64,000 nucleotides of DNA from Chromobacterium subtsugae (GTDB lineage Bacteria > Pseudomonadota > Gammaproteobacteria > Burkholderiales > Chromobacteriaceae), in NCBI RefSeq assembly GCF_001676875.1, contig NZ_JYKA01000003.1, positions 248,001 to 312,000 of the forward strand, read 5' to 3'. Under the pieces are notes generated by a model. That model ran no database searches. It had not been told where the DNA came from and worked only from the letters and a program-made list of their open reading frames with translations. Made by a program: the position numbers and the translations under genes. Numbering within the stretch: the stretch's first letter is position 1; the number at the start of each line of letters is the position of its first letter. Shown piece by piece: positions 26,706 to 32,058 of this stretch.

Positions 26706-27494
26706 TTATTCCTGCCACTTCGGCGCGCGTTTCTCGAAGAACGACGCCAGCCCCTCGCGCGCCTCGTCGCCGGCGCGGATGGAGGCGATGCGGCCGGCGG
26801 TGTGCTCCAGCAATTGGTCGTCCCACGGCGAGCCTTCCCGCAGCTCGGCCAGCAACAGCTTGGCTTCGCGCAGCGCGCCCGGCGCGCCCTTGGCTAGCTC
26901 TTCGGCGATTTCGGCCACCCGCTGGTCCAGCAGTTCTTCGCTGACCAGCTCGTGGATCAGCCCCAGCTTCAGCGCGGTGCCGGCGGGGATGCGCTCGGCG
27001 GAGAGGAAATAGCGCCGCGCCTGGCGCGGGCCGATGGCGTCGGCGACATAGGGGCCGATGGTCGCGGGGATCAGGCCCAGCCGCACTTCGGTCAGCGCGA
27101 ACTTGGCGGCGTCGGTGGCGATGGCGATGTCGCAAACCGCCGCCAGGCCGGTGCCGCCAGCCATCGCCGCGCCGTGGATGCGGGCGATCACCGGCTTGGC
27201 GCTGCGGTAGACGGCCTTCAGCATGGCGGCCAGCTTTTGCGCGTCGGCCAGGTTTTCGGCTTCGCTGTAGCCGGCGGCGCGCCGCATCCAGTCCAGGTCT
27301 GCGCCGGCGCAGAAGCTCTTGCCGCGGCCGGCCAGCACGATCACGCGGACGTCTTGCTTGCGGTTCAGCTGGCGCATCGCCTCGGTCAGCTCGGCGATCA
27401 GCACTTCGTTCAGCGCGTTGTGCAGCTCCGGCCGGTTCAGCCAGACGGTGGCTACCTTGCCGGCTTGCTCGATTTGCAGCGTGGTGTGGCTCAT
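26706..27494 (-). CDS. liuC: Methylglutaconyl-CoA hydratase (enoyl-CoA hydratase family)
   Basis: 262 residues from the second of two adjacent ATGs (27494), 6 bases after AAGGAG that overlaps the liuB stop. Crotonase fold: AGRGKSFCAGADLDWM supplies the first oxyanion residue, and HGAAMAGGTGLAAVCDIAIATDAAKFALTEVRLG (parts of it) the second with the catalytic Glu region. It hydrates 3-methylglutaconyl-CoA to HMG-CoA; assignment among crotonases comes from operon context. Confidence 0.9.
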   Translation of the reverse strand: MSHTTLQIEQAGKVATVWLNRPELHNALNEVLIAELTEAMRQLNRKQDVRVIVLAGRGKSFCAGADLDWMRRAAGYSEAENLADAQKLAAMLKAVYRSAKPVIARIHGAAMAGGTGLAAVCDIAIATDAAKFALTEVRLGLIPATIGPYVADAIGPRQARRYFLSAERIPAGTALKLGLIHELVSEELLDQRVAEIAEELAKGAPGALREAKLLLAELREGSPWDDQLLEHTAGRIASIRAGDEAREGLASFFEKRAPKWQE

Positions 27495-27504
27495 CATCCG
27501 CTCC

Positions 27505-29103
27505 TTACATCCGGAACACGCCGAAGCGCGTGGCTTCGACCGGGGCCGACAACGCGGCATCCAGCGCCAGCGCCAGCACGTCGCGGGTCTGGGCCGGGTC
27601 GATCACGCCGTCGTCCCACAAGCGGGCGCTGGCGTAATAGGGGTGGCCTTGTTCTTCGTACTGCTGGCGCACCGGGGCTTTCAGCGCCTCTTCCTGTTCA
27701 GCCGTGAAGGCGTCGCCCAGTTGTTCCTTCTTCACCTGCGCCAGCACGCCGGCGGCCTGTTCGCCGCCCATCACCGAGATGCGGCTGTTCGGCCACATCC
27801 ACAAAAAGCGCGGCGAGTAGGCGCGGCCGCACATGCCGTAGTTGCCGGCGCCGAAGCTGCCGCCTATCAGCACAGTGAACTTGGGCACCTTGGCGCAGGC
27901 CACCGCGGTCACCAGCTTGGCGCCGTCCTTGGCGATGCCGCCGTTCTCGTACTTCTTGCCCACCATGAAGCCGGTGATGTTCTGCAGGAAGATCAGCGGA
28001 ATGCCGCGCTGGCAGCACAGCTCGACGAAGTGCGCGCCCTTCAGCGCCGATTCGCTGAACAGGATGCCGTTGTTGGCGAGGATGCCGACGCGATAGCCGT
28101 TCAAACGGGCAAAGCCCGTGATTAATGTGGTCCCGTAGTTCTGCTTGAATTCGTCGAAGTCCGAATCGTCCACCAGCCGGGCGATGATCTCGCGCACATC
28201 GAACGGCTTTTTCAGATCGGCCGGGATCACGCCGTAGATTTCCTCGGCGGCGTAGCGCGGCGGTTTGGGCTCGGCGCGGTCGAGTTCGCCTTGTTTCTTC
28301 CAGTTCAGGTCCGACACGATGCGGCGGGCGATGGCCAGCGCATGGGCGTCGCTTTGCGCCAGGTGGTCGGCCACGCCGGAGATTTTGGCGTGCACGTCGC
28401 CGCCGCCCAATTCCTCGGCGCTGACCACCTCGCCGGTGGCGGCGCGCACCAAGGGCGGGCCGCCCAGGAAGATGGTGCCCTGTTCCTTGACGATGACGGT
28501 TTCGTCGCTCATCGCCGGCACATAGGCGCCGCCGGCGGTGCAGCTGCCCATCACCACGGCGATCTGCGGAATGCCGGCGGCGGACAGATTGGCCTGGTTG
28601 TAGAAGATGCGGCCGAAGTGGTCGCGGTCCGGAAATACCTCGTCCTGCAGCGGCAGGAAGGCGCCGCCGGAATCCACCAGGTAGACGCAGGGCAAGCGAT
28701 TGTCGCGGGCGATTTCCTGCGCGCGCAGATGCTTCTTCACCGTCATCGGGTAATAGGTGCCGCCCTTGACCGTGGCGTCGTTGGCGATGATCAGGCAGTC
28801 GATGCCGGAAATGCGGCCGATGCCGGCGATCACGCCCGCGCCGGGCGCGTCGCCGCCATACATGTTGTAGGCGGCTAGCTGGGACAGCTCCAGGAACGGC
28901 GCGCCGGGGTCCAGCAGCAGGTCGATGCGCTCGCGCGGCAGCAGTTTGCCGCGCGCGGTGTGCTTGGCGCGGGCTTTTTCGCCGCCGCCCCACGCCGCCT
29001 GGGCGACTTTTTGTTTCAGATCGTCCACCAGCGCGCGCATCTTGTCGGTGTTGGCGACAAAGTCCGCGGCGCGCGGCGACAGCTTGGATTCGAGGATGGG
29101 CAT
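27505..29103 (-). CDS. liuB: Methylcrotonyl-CoA carboxylase, carboxyltransferase beta subunit
   Basis: 532 residues, tandem crotonase-like carboxyltransferase halves. Landmarks are [22 protein letters not shown] near the N-terminus (usual start of the family), [30 protein letters not shown] and, in the second half, [16 protein letters not shown] that binds biotin/acyl-CoA. Partner of LiuD in a dodecameric holoenzyme. Separated from the preceding NTF2-like gene by 13 bases. Confidence 0.94.
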
Positions 29104-29116
29104 GTGGTTTACCTTG

Positions 29117-29461
29117 TCATTCGGCGTCGACGAACCAGACGGCTGCTATCAATCCATCGGCGTTGATATCGTAGATGGCGACGGCGCGAAAGCGGTTTTC
29201 GCCGTCCAGCGTCACCTCCTCGTGGTCGATGACGCGGCTGCCCTGCACGATGCGGTGCAGCAGCGCGGCGTGCAGCTTGGGCAGGTTGAAGCGCTTGCCG
29301 GCGTAGTGGTCGGCCAGCGCGGCGCGGCCGGATAGGCTCAGCGCCATGGACGGCAGGCGGTAGACCTTGACGTCTTCGGCGTAGCAGGCGGCGAAGGCCT
29401 CGAGATTGCGGGCGTTGTAGGCGTCCAGCTGGGCCTGGACGATGCGTTCGGCGGCGTTCAT
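29117..29461 (-). CDS. NTF2-like (SnoaL-type) small protein
   Basis: 114 residues with the cone-shaped NTF2-like pattern: helix with [34 protein letters not shown], then a GR-ALADHY helix and three long strands ending in [13 protein letters not shown]. Such proteins are steroid-isomerase-like enzymes or ligand binders. It sits between liuA and liuB, which is not standard for liu clusters I know, and just below a Correia-like element. Function unknown. Confidence 0.75.
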
Positions 29462-29489
29462 GTTTTGGTTTTCCTCGGTATGGCCGGGG

Positions 29490-29590
29490 CATGGTTGGAA
29501 AAATCGTCCGAGACAAGGCGCGCCGCCGCAGACAGTACAAATAGTACGGCCAGGCGGCGCAACGCCGTATCGGACGATTTAGCCACCATG
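29490..29590. mobile_element. Correia-like (CREE/nemis-type) miniature inverted-repeat element
   Basis: 101 bases bounded by inverted ends reading CATGGT..GG..AAATCGTCCGA from both sides. The core on the minus strand contains TACGGCGTTGC, GTACTATTTGTACTGTCTGC (29528-29547) and CGCCTTGTC in the same order and spacing as the short Correia element of Neisseria, whose ends are TATAGTGGATTAA. The ends here share the GTGG and AA parts. It starts one base after the liuA stop and ends 28 bases before the next ATG, so it is transcribed within the operon. No transposase. Confidence 0.85.
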
Positions 29591-29591
29591 C

Positions 29592-30761
29592 TTATCGGGT
29601 TTCGGCCATCAGTTCGCGGCCGATCAGCCAGCGGCGGATCTCGCTGGTGCCGGCGCCGATCTCGTACAGCTTGGCGTCGCGCAGCAGGCGGCCAGTGGCG
29701 TATTCGTTGATGTAGCCGTTGCCGCCCAGGCACTGGATGGCGTCCAGCGCCAGCTGGGTGGCGTTCTCGGCCGCGTACAGGATGGCGCCGGCGGCGTCCT
29801 TGCGGGTCTGGCGGCCGGTTTCGCCGCGGTCCAGCGCCTGGCCCACGGCATAGACGTAGGCGCGGCTGGCGGACAGCTTGACGTACATGTCCGCCAGCTT
29901 GCCCTGCATCAGCTGGAAGTCGCCGATGGGCTGGCCGAACTGGCTGCGGTCGTTCAGATAGGGCACCACGATGTCCAGGCTGGCCTGCATGATGCCCAGC
30001 GGGCCGGCGGCCAGCACCGAGCGCTCGTAATCCAGGCCGCTCATCAGCACTTTCACGCCATTGCCTTCGCCGCCCAGCACGTTTTCTTCCGGCACGAAAC
30101 AGTTGTCGAAGAAGATCGGGTAGGTGTTGGAGCCGCGCATGCCCAGCTTGTCCAGCTTGCTGCCGTGGCTGAAGCCGGCGAAGGACTTTTCAATGATGAA
30201 GGCGGTGATGCCCTTGGGACCGGCGTTGACGTCGGTTTTGGCGTATACAACCAGCGTGTCGGCGTCGCCGCCGTTGGTGATCCACATCTTGCTGCCGTTC
30301 AGCAGGTAGCCGCCGTCAGTCTTGTCGGCCTTCAGCTTCATGCTGACCACGTCGGAGCCGGCGTTCGGTTCGGACATCGCCAGCGCGCCGACGTGCTCGC
30401 CGGAGACCAGCTTGGGCAGGTATTTCGCGCGCTGTGCGTCGTTGCCGTTCTTGTAGATCTGGTTGACGCACAGATTGGAGTGCGCGCCGTAAGACAGGCC
30501 CACCGAGGCGCTGGCGCGGCTGATTTCCTCCATCGCGATCATGTGGGCGAGGTAGCCCATGTCCACGCCGCCGTACTGCTCGCCGACGGTGATGCCGAGC
30601 AAGCCCAGCTCGCCGAACTTGCGCCACAGATCGGCCGGGAACAAGTTGTCCTGGTCGATGGCGGCGGCGCGCGGGGCGATTTCGCGATCGGCGAAGTCGC
30701 GCACCGATTCGCGCAGGAGGTCGTAAGTCTCGCCGAAGGCGAAGCGCAGGCTGCTGTACAT
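29592..30761 (-). CDS. liuA: Isovaleryl-CoA dehydrogenase
   Basis: 389 residues from the ATG at 30761 (GAGGAG 7 bases before); 17 upstream codons are excluded. FAD acyl-CoA dehydrogenase: [12 protein letters not shown] for the FAD/substrate site, [11 protein letters not shown], the catalytic glutamate in [13 protein letters not shown] (isovaleryl type, on helix G) and [22 protein letters not shown] at the C-terminus. It oxidises isovaleryl-CoA to 3-methylcrotonyl-CoA, the first committed step. First gene of the operon. Confidence 0.94.
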
Positions 30762-30810
30762 GGAATTCTCCTCGTTGGGCGTGCGGCGCGGCTGGCGGCG
30801 CCTGATGAGC

Positions 30811-30841
30811 ACATCATCGCTTACGTTTACGTAAGCGTCAA
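30811..30841 (-). promoter_or_regulatory. liu operon promoter with LiuR operator
   Basis: CGCTTACGTTTACGTAAGCG (30818-30837) has perfect 9-base arms around TT. On the minus strand it fills the 19-base spacer between TTGACG (-35, 30836-30841) and TGATGT (-10, 30811-30816). Long spacers with a central dyad are the hallmark of MerR-family activators such as LiuR. Confidence 0.8.
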
Positions 30842-30882
30842 TATGTCGCCATGATGAGGAGCCGACTGGGCACGGCGGGCGC

Positions 30883-31353
30883 TTATTCGCGATTGATCAC
30901 ATGGCGCAGGCTGCGGTCTTCGCTGATCAGCATGTCTTTCATGGGCTGCGGCAGGATGCGCAGCTCGCCGAGCTGCTCGCGGCTGAACCAGTCGAACTCC
31001 AGGCGAGCGCCGCCGTCTTCGATTGCGAACGGCGTGGCGCGGCTAGGCAGCGCGGAGCCCGCGGCCAGATGAGTCTGGAAATACAAGCCCAGCTCATGGT
31101 TGCGCTGGCCGCCCGCGCTGAAGAAGTTTTCAATCAGCATGACCATCTCGCCGCAACGCACGGCTTCGCCCAGCTCCTCCAGCATTTCTCGTTCCACCGT
31201 TTTGGCCGCTTCCTCGTCGGGGTCTACACGGCCGCCGGGCAGGGTCCAGAAATCGTCGCGGATCAGGCGGTGCAGCAAGACCTTGCCCTCATGCTCGATG
31301 ATGGCGGCGGCGCGCAGATTGAAACGGGTGCCGGCTATGTCGACGCTGATCAC
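30883..31353 (-). CDS. Nudix hydrolase
   Basis: 156 residues with a complete Nudix box: Gly41, Glu47, Arg55-Glu56, Glu59-Glu60, Gly62 (G-x5-E-x7-RE-U-x-EE-x-G). The front strands [22 protein letters not shown] are typical of small nucleoside-diphosphate-derivative hydrolases. Substrate not predictable. Divergent from the yaiI-like gene and tail-to-liuA-promoter. Confidence 0.85.
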
Positions 31354-31458
31354 TTGCTATCTCCTTGGCATTTTTGGCGGGCGCGCAGCATAGCGCTTTC
31401 TCCCGTCATGGACAAGGGCAGGTATCATGGCGGCCTGTTGATAGAGAAAGAAGCCGAC

Positions 31459-31905
31459 ATGACGATCTGGGTAGACGCCGATGCCTGTCCCAAGGTGATA
31501 CGGGAAGTGTTGTTCCGCGCGGCGCAGCGCACCGGCGTGGAGTTGGTGTTGGTCGCCAACCAGCTGCTGACGGTGCCAAAGGCGCCGAACATCCGCGCGC
31601 TGCAAGTGCCCAAGGGCTTCGATGTGGCGGACAATGAGATCGCCCGCCGCATCGAGCCGACCGATTTGCTGATCACCGGCGACATTCCGCTGGCGTCCGA
31701 GGTTCTGGCCAAGGGCGCGCAGGCGCTGAACTGGCGCGGCGAGGCGTTTTCCAAGGAAACCATCGCCGCGCAACTGACGATGCGCGATTTCATGGACAAT
31801 CTGCGCGCCAGCGGCGTGCAGACCGAGGGACCGCCGCCTTTGAGCCAGGCCGACCGGCAGGCCTTCGCACGCCAGCTGGACATCTGGCTGGCGAAGCGGC
31901 GCTAG
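31459..31905 (+). CDS. YaiI/YqxD family protein (UPF0178, DUF188)
   Basis: 148 residues from the ATG at 31459, which matches the family N-terminus [20 protein letters not shown]. Other family marks are [33 protein letters not shown] and [11 protein letters not shown]. The fold is PIN/NYN-nuclease-like with conserved aspartates, but the activity has not been shown. Single gene followed by a hairpin. Confidence 0.88.
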
Positions 31906-31910
31906 GGGGG

Positions 31911-31936
31911 AAGCCCGGCTTGAGCCGGGCATTATG
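31911..31936 (+). terminator. Probable terminator of the yaiI-like gene
   Basis: GCCCGGCT and AGCCGGGC form an 8-bp stem; the following ATTATG is only a weak T-rich tail. Confidence 0.5.
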
Positions 31937-32058
31937 CCAAGTAGTGGCCGCAGAGGGGATGATTTGTGGTGCAGCTTCCGCCAGTAGGCGGGTCAGGGGG
32001 CTGCGCGGCCAGCCCCCCGACACCCCCAGGCCGCCCCGACAGCGCGTCGAAACCCCGT

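Follow-up and report, generated by a model that had tools for sequence, protein, structure and literature searches.

About 2% of the genome of the meningococcus consists of Correia elements, also known as CREE or NEMIS (PMC3898611). Their 26-bp ends follow the pattern TATAG[CT]GGATTAA... (PMC2911385), and the long neisserial elements contain a 50-bp insert that carries an IHF site (PMC2229807). The mechanism of their mobilisation was given as not determined by Snyder et al. 2009 (PMC2649163), and IS1106, an insertion sequence (IS) of the IS5 family, has been proposed (PMC3898611). The RUP elements of pneumococcus and the ERIC elements of enterobacteria are likewise short non-autonomous hairpin repeats, comparable in kind to the element described here; RUP has IS630 ends and TA targets (PMC2229807), and ERIC affects mRNA (PMC10969869). 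Our literature search, which covered titles and abstract openings and does not settle priority, returned no Correia-core elements outside Neisseria and no description of an IS630 parent.

A Correia-type core in the liu operon of Chromobacterium

The window analysed is a stretch of 64,000 nucleotides from Chromobacterium subtsugae (genome G000, contig 23, positions 248001-312000). It contains a 101-bp inverted repeat at 29490-29590, between a liuA-like gene and a SnoaL-like gene. The features of the locus, in window coordinates, are as follows.

27505..29103, minus strand, carboxyltransferase gene (liuB-like; PF01039)
29117..29461, minus strand, SnoaL-like gene downstream of the palindrome (PF12680; start codon at 29461)
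29490..29511, no strand, left arm of the palindrome, AAATCGTCCGA at 29501-29511 plus an outer part (fold and alignment)
29512..29569, no strand, Correia-type core, GACAAGGC...GCAGACAGTAC-AAATA-GTACGGC...GCAACGCCGTA (aligned to Correia elements)
29535..29547, no strand, terminal stem-loop of the core, GTAC-AAATA-GTAC (family alignment A2, fold)
29570..29590, no strand, right arm of the palindrome (fold and alignment)
29592..30812, minus strand, acyl-CoA dehydrogenase gene (liuA-like; PF02771, PF00441, PF02770)

A sequence-only reading of this DNA had described a 101-base inverted repeat with three Correia core blocks in order, placed between the liuA stop and the next gene. All of this is found: the repeat has the expected extent, the blocks follow one another on the minus strand, and the liuA-like stop codon occupies 29592-29594, so that the gene ends 1 base short of the palindrome, with the next start codon at 29461. 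The carboxylase genes, which had been placed directly after liuA, come later, as the SnoaL-like gene is followed by the carboxyltransferase, an enoyl-CoA hydratase and a biotin carboxylase/MCC-alpha gene. We take this set of acyl-CoA dehydrogenase, carboxyltransferase, hydratase and biotin carboxylase genes to be a liu-type operon; the element lies within it, and a read-through transcript would carry the hairpin, as had been expected. The arms of the window copy consist of CATGGTTGGAAAAATCGTCCGA and its partner. Five loci of the genus (L056-L060; G005, G013, G006, G001 and G014) lack the SnoaL-like gene that elsewhere separates liuA from the carboxyltransferase gene, and in G005 and G013 half of the liu hairpin is missing along with it.

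Local alignment of the palindrome with a Correia element of N. gonorrhoeae DSM 9188 (L066) scored 79, with 54/63 positions identical, against maxima of 37 in 2000 dinucleotide shuffles and 27 in 2000 pairing-keeping shuffles. With a Correia element of N. sicca (L064) the score was 81, with 52/59 identical, against maxima of 28 and 27 in the same numbers of shuffles. A likeness by chance is excluded, because these scores lie far beyond all 2000 shuffles; the resemblance of the cores noticed from the letters is thus far better than that of shuffled sequence. The alignment runs from 29512 onward. Judged by these alignments, the core of the liu palindrome is homologous to the neisserial Correia core, outside Neisseria.

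The ends tell otherwise. The 26-bp Correia ends are absent from the arms of the window copy: the inverted ends differ, as had been claimed. The element is not a Correia element in the strict sense, because those ends are absent. The GAGCSGCTAACAAAA ends of an IS5-type MITE of Chromobacterium, present in the 39 relatives that we counted, are absent as well, which leaves the window copy with neither end type; its outer boundary is eroded, with no recognisable edge, and the intact relatives in the genus are flanked by a 3-bp TWA repeat. What the family shares with Correia elements is the core sequence, a length near 105 bp and a long hairpin, predicted in the window copy. What sets it apart are the ends, of TATAGTGGATTAA type in Correia elements but not in the window copy or the intact Chromobacterium copies, and the flank repeat, TA in Correia and 3-bp TWA in Chromobacterium. 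Nor does the window copy contain a 50-bp insert of the kind in which long neisserial elements have their IHF site. An Rfam scan of 27000-32000 returned nothing at the gathering cut-off, and its 3 chance-level matches (E 1.7-3.6) lay elsewhere than over the element.

The Chromobacterium family and the liu site across the genus

Relatives of the palindrome are present throughout the genus. With about 40 candidates scored per genome, matches at E <= 0.001 numbered between 1 and 41 in each of the 19 Chromobacterium genomes, and the case of a single copy without relatives therefore does not apply. The genome of the window has one further clear copy (C34:142383-142443, 82%) and gave 4 matches to a covariance model. 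Intact Chromobacterium copies bear GAGCSGCTAACAAAA at both ends, and most are 112 bp long. We collected 39 distinct copies with such ends from the loci at hand, some of them from Vogesella, Aquitalea and other genera. Identical 3-bp flanks border 24 of these (p about 1e-33 at 1/64, 1e-19 at 1/16), 23 of them TWA (TAA or TTA), and a 4-bp flank repeat was found in none. The flank repeat in these intact relatives is TWA, where a TA duplication had been named as something to look for. Five further similar copies in G006 have a shorter loop and were left out of the 39; four of them have matching 3-bp flanks, and three (L183, L184 and L186) are identical by eye.

The same GAGCSGCTAACAAAA ends also bound an 864-bp IS in G014 (L207), whose ORFs carry DUF4096 and DDE_Tnp_1 domains. 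Its two ORFs (PF13340, PF01609) match NCBIfam transpos_IS5_3, each below the whole-protein cut-off because each is only a part, and its own flanks show no perfect 3-bp repeat. Degraded relatives occur in G012 (L209, flanks TAA/TAA) and in G014 (L214), and G006 has 24 DUF4096 matches, many of them at contig ends. L207 shares the GAGCSGCTAACAAAA ends and the TWA context with the intact copies, but it and the other ISs that we read lack the core; the exception is the defective IS5-family IS L214:1222-1874, which has a Correia core directly beside its right end. Going by ends and flanks, the Chromobacterium family is one with IS5-type ends and TWA flank repeats, like the co-resident IS5-family IS, and as a class the family elements are MITEs.

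Tandem arrays of 2-4 Correia-core units, spaced by about 100-113 bp, were seen in G012 (L194-L199); their arms are not alike from one array to the next, and complementarity is frequent between the outermost ones. A search for composite ISs by end pattern in three genomes yielded end pairs in G006 and G014, at spacings of 997 and 1341 bp, each of which proved to be two MITEs around an ordinary gene. For one copy in G006 (L312) we sought the left flank in 19 genomes and read 7 of 18 loci, none of which proved to be a clean empty site: G001 seems to have a deletion, and beyond the gene G017 and G009 differ too much. In G004, G005 and G013, the TTA that holds the Correia-core MITE in G006 holds another MITE. 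This other MITE (L313 in G005, L315 in G013, L316 in G004) lies just after a response-regulator stop codon and has GAGCCTGTTCAAAGTC or close variants at one end and ..GTAAACAGGTTC at the other. With its GAGACAAGGCG- and GTACNNNNNGTAC-like pieces, it may be a distant cousin of the core.

The end of liuA is present in 19/19 Chromobacterium genomes, and a full core follows it in eight (G000, G001, G002, G007, G012, G015, G017 and G018). Parts of the element are kept in seven more: G016 has a loop deletion, G004, G006, G008 and G009 have lost the middle and kept the arms, and G005 and G013 retain half an element. Three genomes have palindromes of other sequence, in which two unrelated repeats, GCCACGAAACCC.. 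and GCCACGGAAGCACACGG.., replace the Correia-core hairpin (L051/L053 in G010 and G011, L054 in G003). In the remaining genome, G014, the site has no palindrome. Comparison of these sites indicates that the liu copy is an old, inherited element, a site passed down in most of the genus rather than a fresh insertion, and that liu-site hairpins arose from at least two unrelated repeats besides the Correia-core one.

The eight full liu copies align over 123 columns, and multi-base differences between the orthologs affect both arms at once. Of 343 cells placed on the fold predicted for the window copy, 84.8% are paired, against 80.5 +/- 0.9 in shuffles (0/500), and 19 cells are doubly changed, against 9.0 +/- 2.4 (0/500), counts that can be inflated by relatedness of the sequences. 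The pairs with double change (8; 59/500 shuffles as high) and the further pair types (15; 271/500) show no excess. Twelve liu-site sequences were folded, and z fell below -4 in eight of them, six core-bearing and two with other palindromes. Folds were weak in G007 (-1.4, hairpin broken), in the deletion variants G009 (-1.6) and G006 (-1.1), and in G014 (+0.2). On these predicted folds a hairpin at the liu site is common and not indispensable, since it is broken in G007, weak in two deletion variants and missing along with the palindrome in G014.

Spread of the core and IS630 elements as candidate mobilisers

An exact pattern scan of one genome per species, over 84,980 species, found at least 119 stretches, and the taxa among the matches listed were Neisseria, Vogesella, Chromobacterium, Aquitalea, Cardiobacterium valvarum, Pasteurella testudinis, Janthinobacterium and a MAG. 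Correia-core elements thus turn up in two gammaproteobacteria, Cardiobacterium valvarum (L088, L306) and Pasteurella testudinis (L158); the copy of the latter shares its type of arm with a Neisseria MAG, and the Cardiobacterium copies have arms of their own. From 194 distinct copies in hand we picked 38 by hand as the rows of alignment A2; the search patterns account in part for the lack of variation in GCAGACAGTAC...GTACGGC there. The model built from A2 (covariance model R1), with at most 11 candidates scored per genome and rough E-values, matched 141 of 399 genomes of the order, in 73 of 158 genera, at E <= 0.001; 113 of the 141 reached E <= 1e-6 by our own count, and 258 genomes had no match. 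Against the window it matched 29500-29582 with 94.7 bits (E 1.1e-30), the window copy being one of its 38 training rows.

In 30 loci from the R1 search the common core sits between arms that are often unrelated yet complementary. The pairing test on A2 used only the outer helix and the GTAC stem of its structure; all 89 doubly changed cells fall in the outer helix, against 35.1 +/- 4.8 in shuffles (0/500), and the 8 pairs with double change show no excess (443/500). Inside the core, the column pair 14-70 is AU, GC or CG in 34/38 rows, and the asymmetric bulges of the core persist in distant copies.

Among the L061-L179 loci, 110 core copies end in TATAG, with 28 different arm 14-mers, several of them within one MAG. 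Nesting at the TA of another core's GTACTATCTGTAC was present among the matches listed. In L371 (N. viridiae) and in L063 and L095 (Neisseria MAG S5R_Sa_39), an IS630 end and whole Correia-type elements are nested inside other cores, at the TA of the GTACTATNTGTAC loop, and one junction in L371 shows an N. elongata-type IS630 in the TA of a Correia core. The core itself is therefore a target.

An IS5-family parent was tried for the neisserial elements and rejected: DUF4096 genes exist in 4/5 genomes (3/4 Neisseria plus Cardiobacterium), and the ends do not fit, since of the five Neisseria loci L261, L263 and L264 have other ends and L262 no clear ones (L267 left out). In 8-kb neisserial loci no TATAG-bounded pair was taken as an IS among the long pairs listed, most of which enclose cores. 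A DDE_3 search of four Neisseria genomes gave 2 matches, in one genome. One of these two, L280, is a 918-bp IS630 element with the ends TATAGTCAATTAAAATAAGAAC and TATAGTGAGTTAAAATAAGAGT, and a protein search of 14 genomes found its relatives in 6. A TATAG end pair was present in 20 of the 32 loci L280-L311 (at least 15/20 bases alike in 18 of them) and absent from 12, some of which are cut by contig ends; ten more stretches of G309 all have TATAG-type end pairs and supply two further IS630 types. The last IS630 search covered 14 genome entries and gave matches in 7, which are 5 distinct genomes as two pairs are duplicates, one of them N. gonorrhoeae DSM 9188, which has eight partial matches, with 2 of 3 loci examined ending in TATAGTCAATTAAAATCAAAATAGGACAGT. 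The proteins match NCBIfam transpos_IS630 (above cut-off for L280 only), PF13358 and PF01710.

Since the IS630 search used TATAG or TA ends, that feature was selected for and any match beyond it was not. Six MITE end sets, picked by hand, were set against six from ISs over positions 6-28, using 20000 letter shuffles. Three sets have a clear partner, with scores that 0/20000 shuffles reached in each case: classic Correia with the N. elongata IS (17/23), the TATAGCAGA type (G418) with the type-B IS of G309 (16/23), and the Cardiobacterium MITE with its own IS (18/23). The other three sets are less clear: for L281 (G418) three ISs are tied, at 16/23 on one arm; for L330 (G309) the best partner is the N. 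elongata IS (16/23), the G309 ISs reaching 10-13; and L259 (G309) has no clear partner (13/23). G309 is rich in IS630, and neither L330 nor L259 matches best to any of its own three types. The remaining MITE-IS pairings give 6-14 of 23. The N. elongata IS (L284), 905 bp long and with two ORFs that overlap (116 and 197 aa), comes from the ATCC 25295 genome in which L157 also lies (G365, the same as G425); its two ends read TAGGACA and TAGTACA, where classic Correia has CAGGACA and CAGTACG.

The IS630 ISs of N. elongata, G309, G418 and Cardiobacterium thus share with the neisserial and Cardiobacterium core elements the TATAG ends and an inner GACA/GTAC or TAAC box, but those that we read have no core, and the window copy has no IS630-type end. 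In the neisserial copies the arm together with the inner box (GACA/GTAC) resembles an IS630 end, and the rest of the core beyond the box is in no IS read except the defective L214. An IS5-type end aligned to the Correia arms did better than 99.6% of 20000 shuffles with one of the two arm types and did not align at all with the other. The Chromobacterium copies keep the box GANCAAGG inside their IS5-type ends, which suggests that the ends may have been exchanged around an older core. One hairpin core thus appears, by comparison of the ends, inside those of two unrelated transposase families. An IS5-family transposase would move the Chromobacteriaceae copies in trans, and IS630 transposases would move those of Neisseria and Cardiobacterium; on this reading IS630-family ISs, whose ends match 3/6 of the end sets examined, from their own or a sister genome, are a new candidate for the mobiliser of Correia elements.

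The hairpin at the liu site and its possible explanations

The liu-strand RNA of 29480-29600 (121 nt) folds at -65.9 kcal/mol (z -8.3, 0/200 shuffles as low), and the other strand, folded as DNA, gives z -6.8. The liu copy looks immobile, and we infer that it can no longer be mobilised. Between liuA and the SnoaL-like gene its RNA would fold into a long hairpin. This would most likely serve in processing or protect the 3' end, leaving the level of the liuA message free to differ from that of the downstream genes; such an RNA-hairpin role is a prediction. A promoter, which such elements can bring in Neisseria, did not appear, a scan of 29100-30000 giving 0 sites. With a crude ORF caller we placed 151 copies relative to genes, 89 tandem, 47 convergent and 15 divergent (p 6e-5), and 24 further copies lay inside ORFs or were unplaced. 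The convergent excess rests mainly on the L061-L179 group (38 vs 13) and not on the Chromobacterium loci (2 vs 1); the order loci gave 7 vs 1. It fits 3' ends better than promoters, contrary to a review according to which most Correia elements lie immediately upstream of genes (PMC10969869).

The reading that we hold probable is that a large MITE family with one bulged-hairpin core, moved in trans by IS5 and IS630 transposases, left an old copy at liu that has since been inherited and serves there as an RNA hairpin. An insertion received recently from Neisseria is scarcely credible: the 54/63 identity of the core would suit it, but the site is inherited in most of the genus, Correia ends are lacking and the genus has a family of its own. 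That the hairpin acts instead on transcription, as an attenuator or intrinsic terminator separating liuA from the other operon genes, we consider unlikely. It is very stable, its 3' arm on the liu strand ends in UUUUU and copies are in excess between convergent genes; against this, the terminator scan of 29100-30000, which allows loops of 3-8 only, found 0 sites, and the genes downstream belong to the same pathway.

The complementarity of the arms might also be a product of mutation, template switching at quasi-palindromes copying one arm onto the other, with the liu hairpin neutral. The multi-base differences on both arms at once are what such copying would leave, and G007 shows that a broken hairpin survives; yet distant copies retain the asymmetric bulges of the core, which correction of this sort should remove, and three palindrome families occupy one liu site, so that we regard this account as somewhat unlikely. 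More improbable still is that the core is a mobile hairpin in its own right, which inserts into the middle of other palindromes and for that reason lies between unrelated arms. A common core between unrelated but complementary arms, in several families, and the defective L214, with a core beside its right end, would agree with it, but the flank repeats stand at the outer ends of the elements, the GACA/GTAC box beside the core is also in IS630 ends, and no palindrome with the same arms and no core was shown at an orthologous site.

Beyond the liu copy as an inherited MITE, Correia elements may be the neisserial branch of an order-wide superfamily defined by its core, with ends exchanged between IS630 (TA) and IS5 (TWA) types and with IS630 as the mobiliser of Correia; we put this forward tentatively, as at best an even prospect. 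The core would then be kept as folded nucleic acid, for movement of the element or for tolerance by the host. For the family as a whole, these comparisons mean that the Correia core is not confined to Neisseria, and that Correia elements have concrete candidate mobilisers in IS630 elements with matching ends, one of them in N. elongata ATCC 25295. The old question of how Correia elements are mobilised can now be tested, and a new one takes its place beside it: why one hairpin core would be kept inside the ends of two unrelated transposase families.
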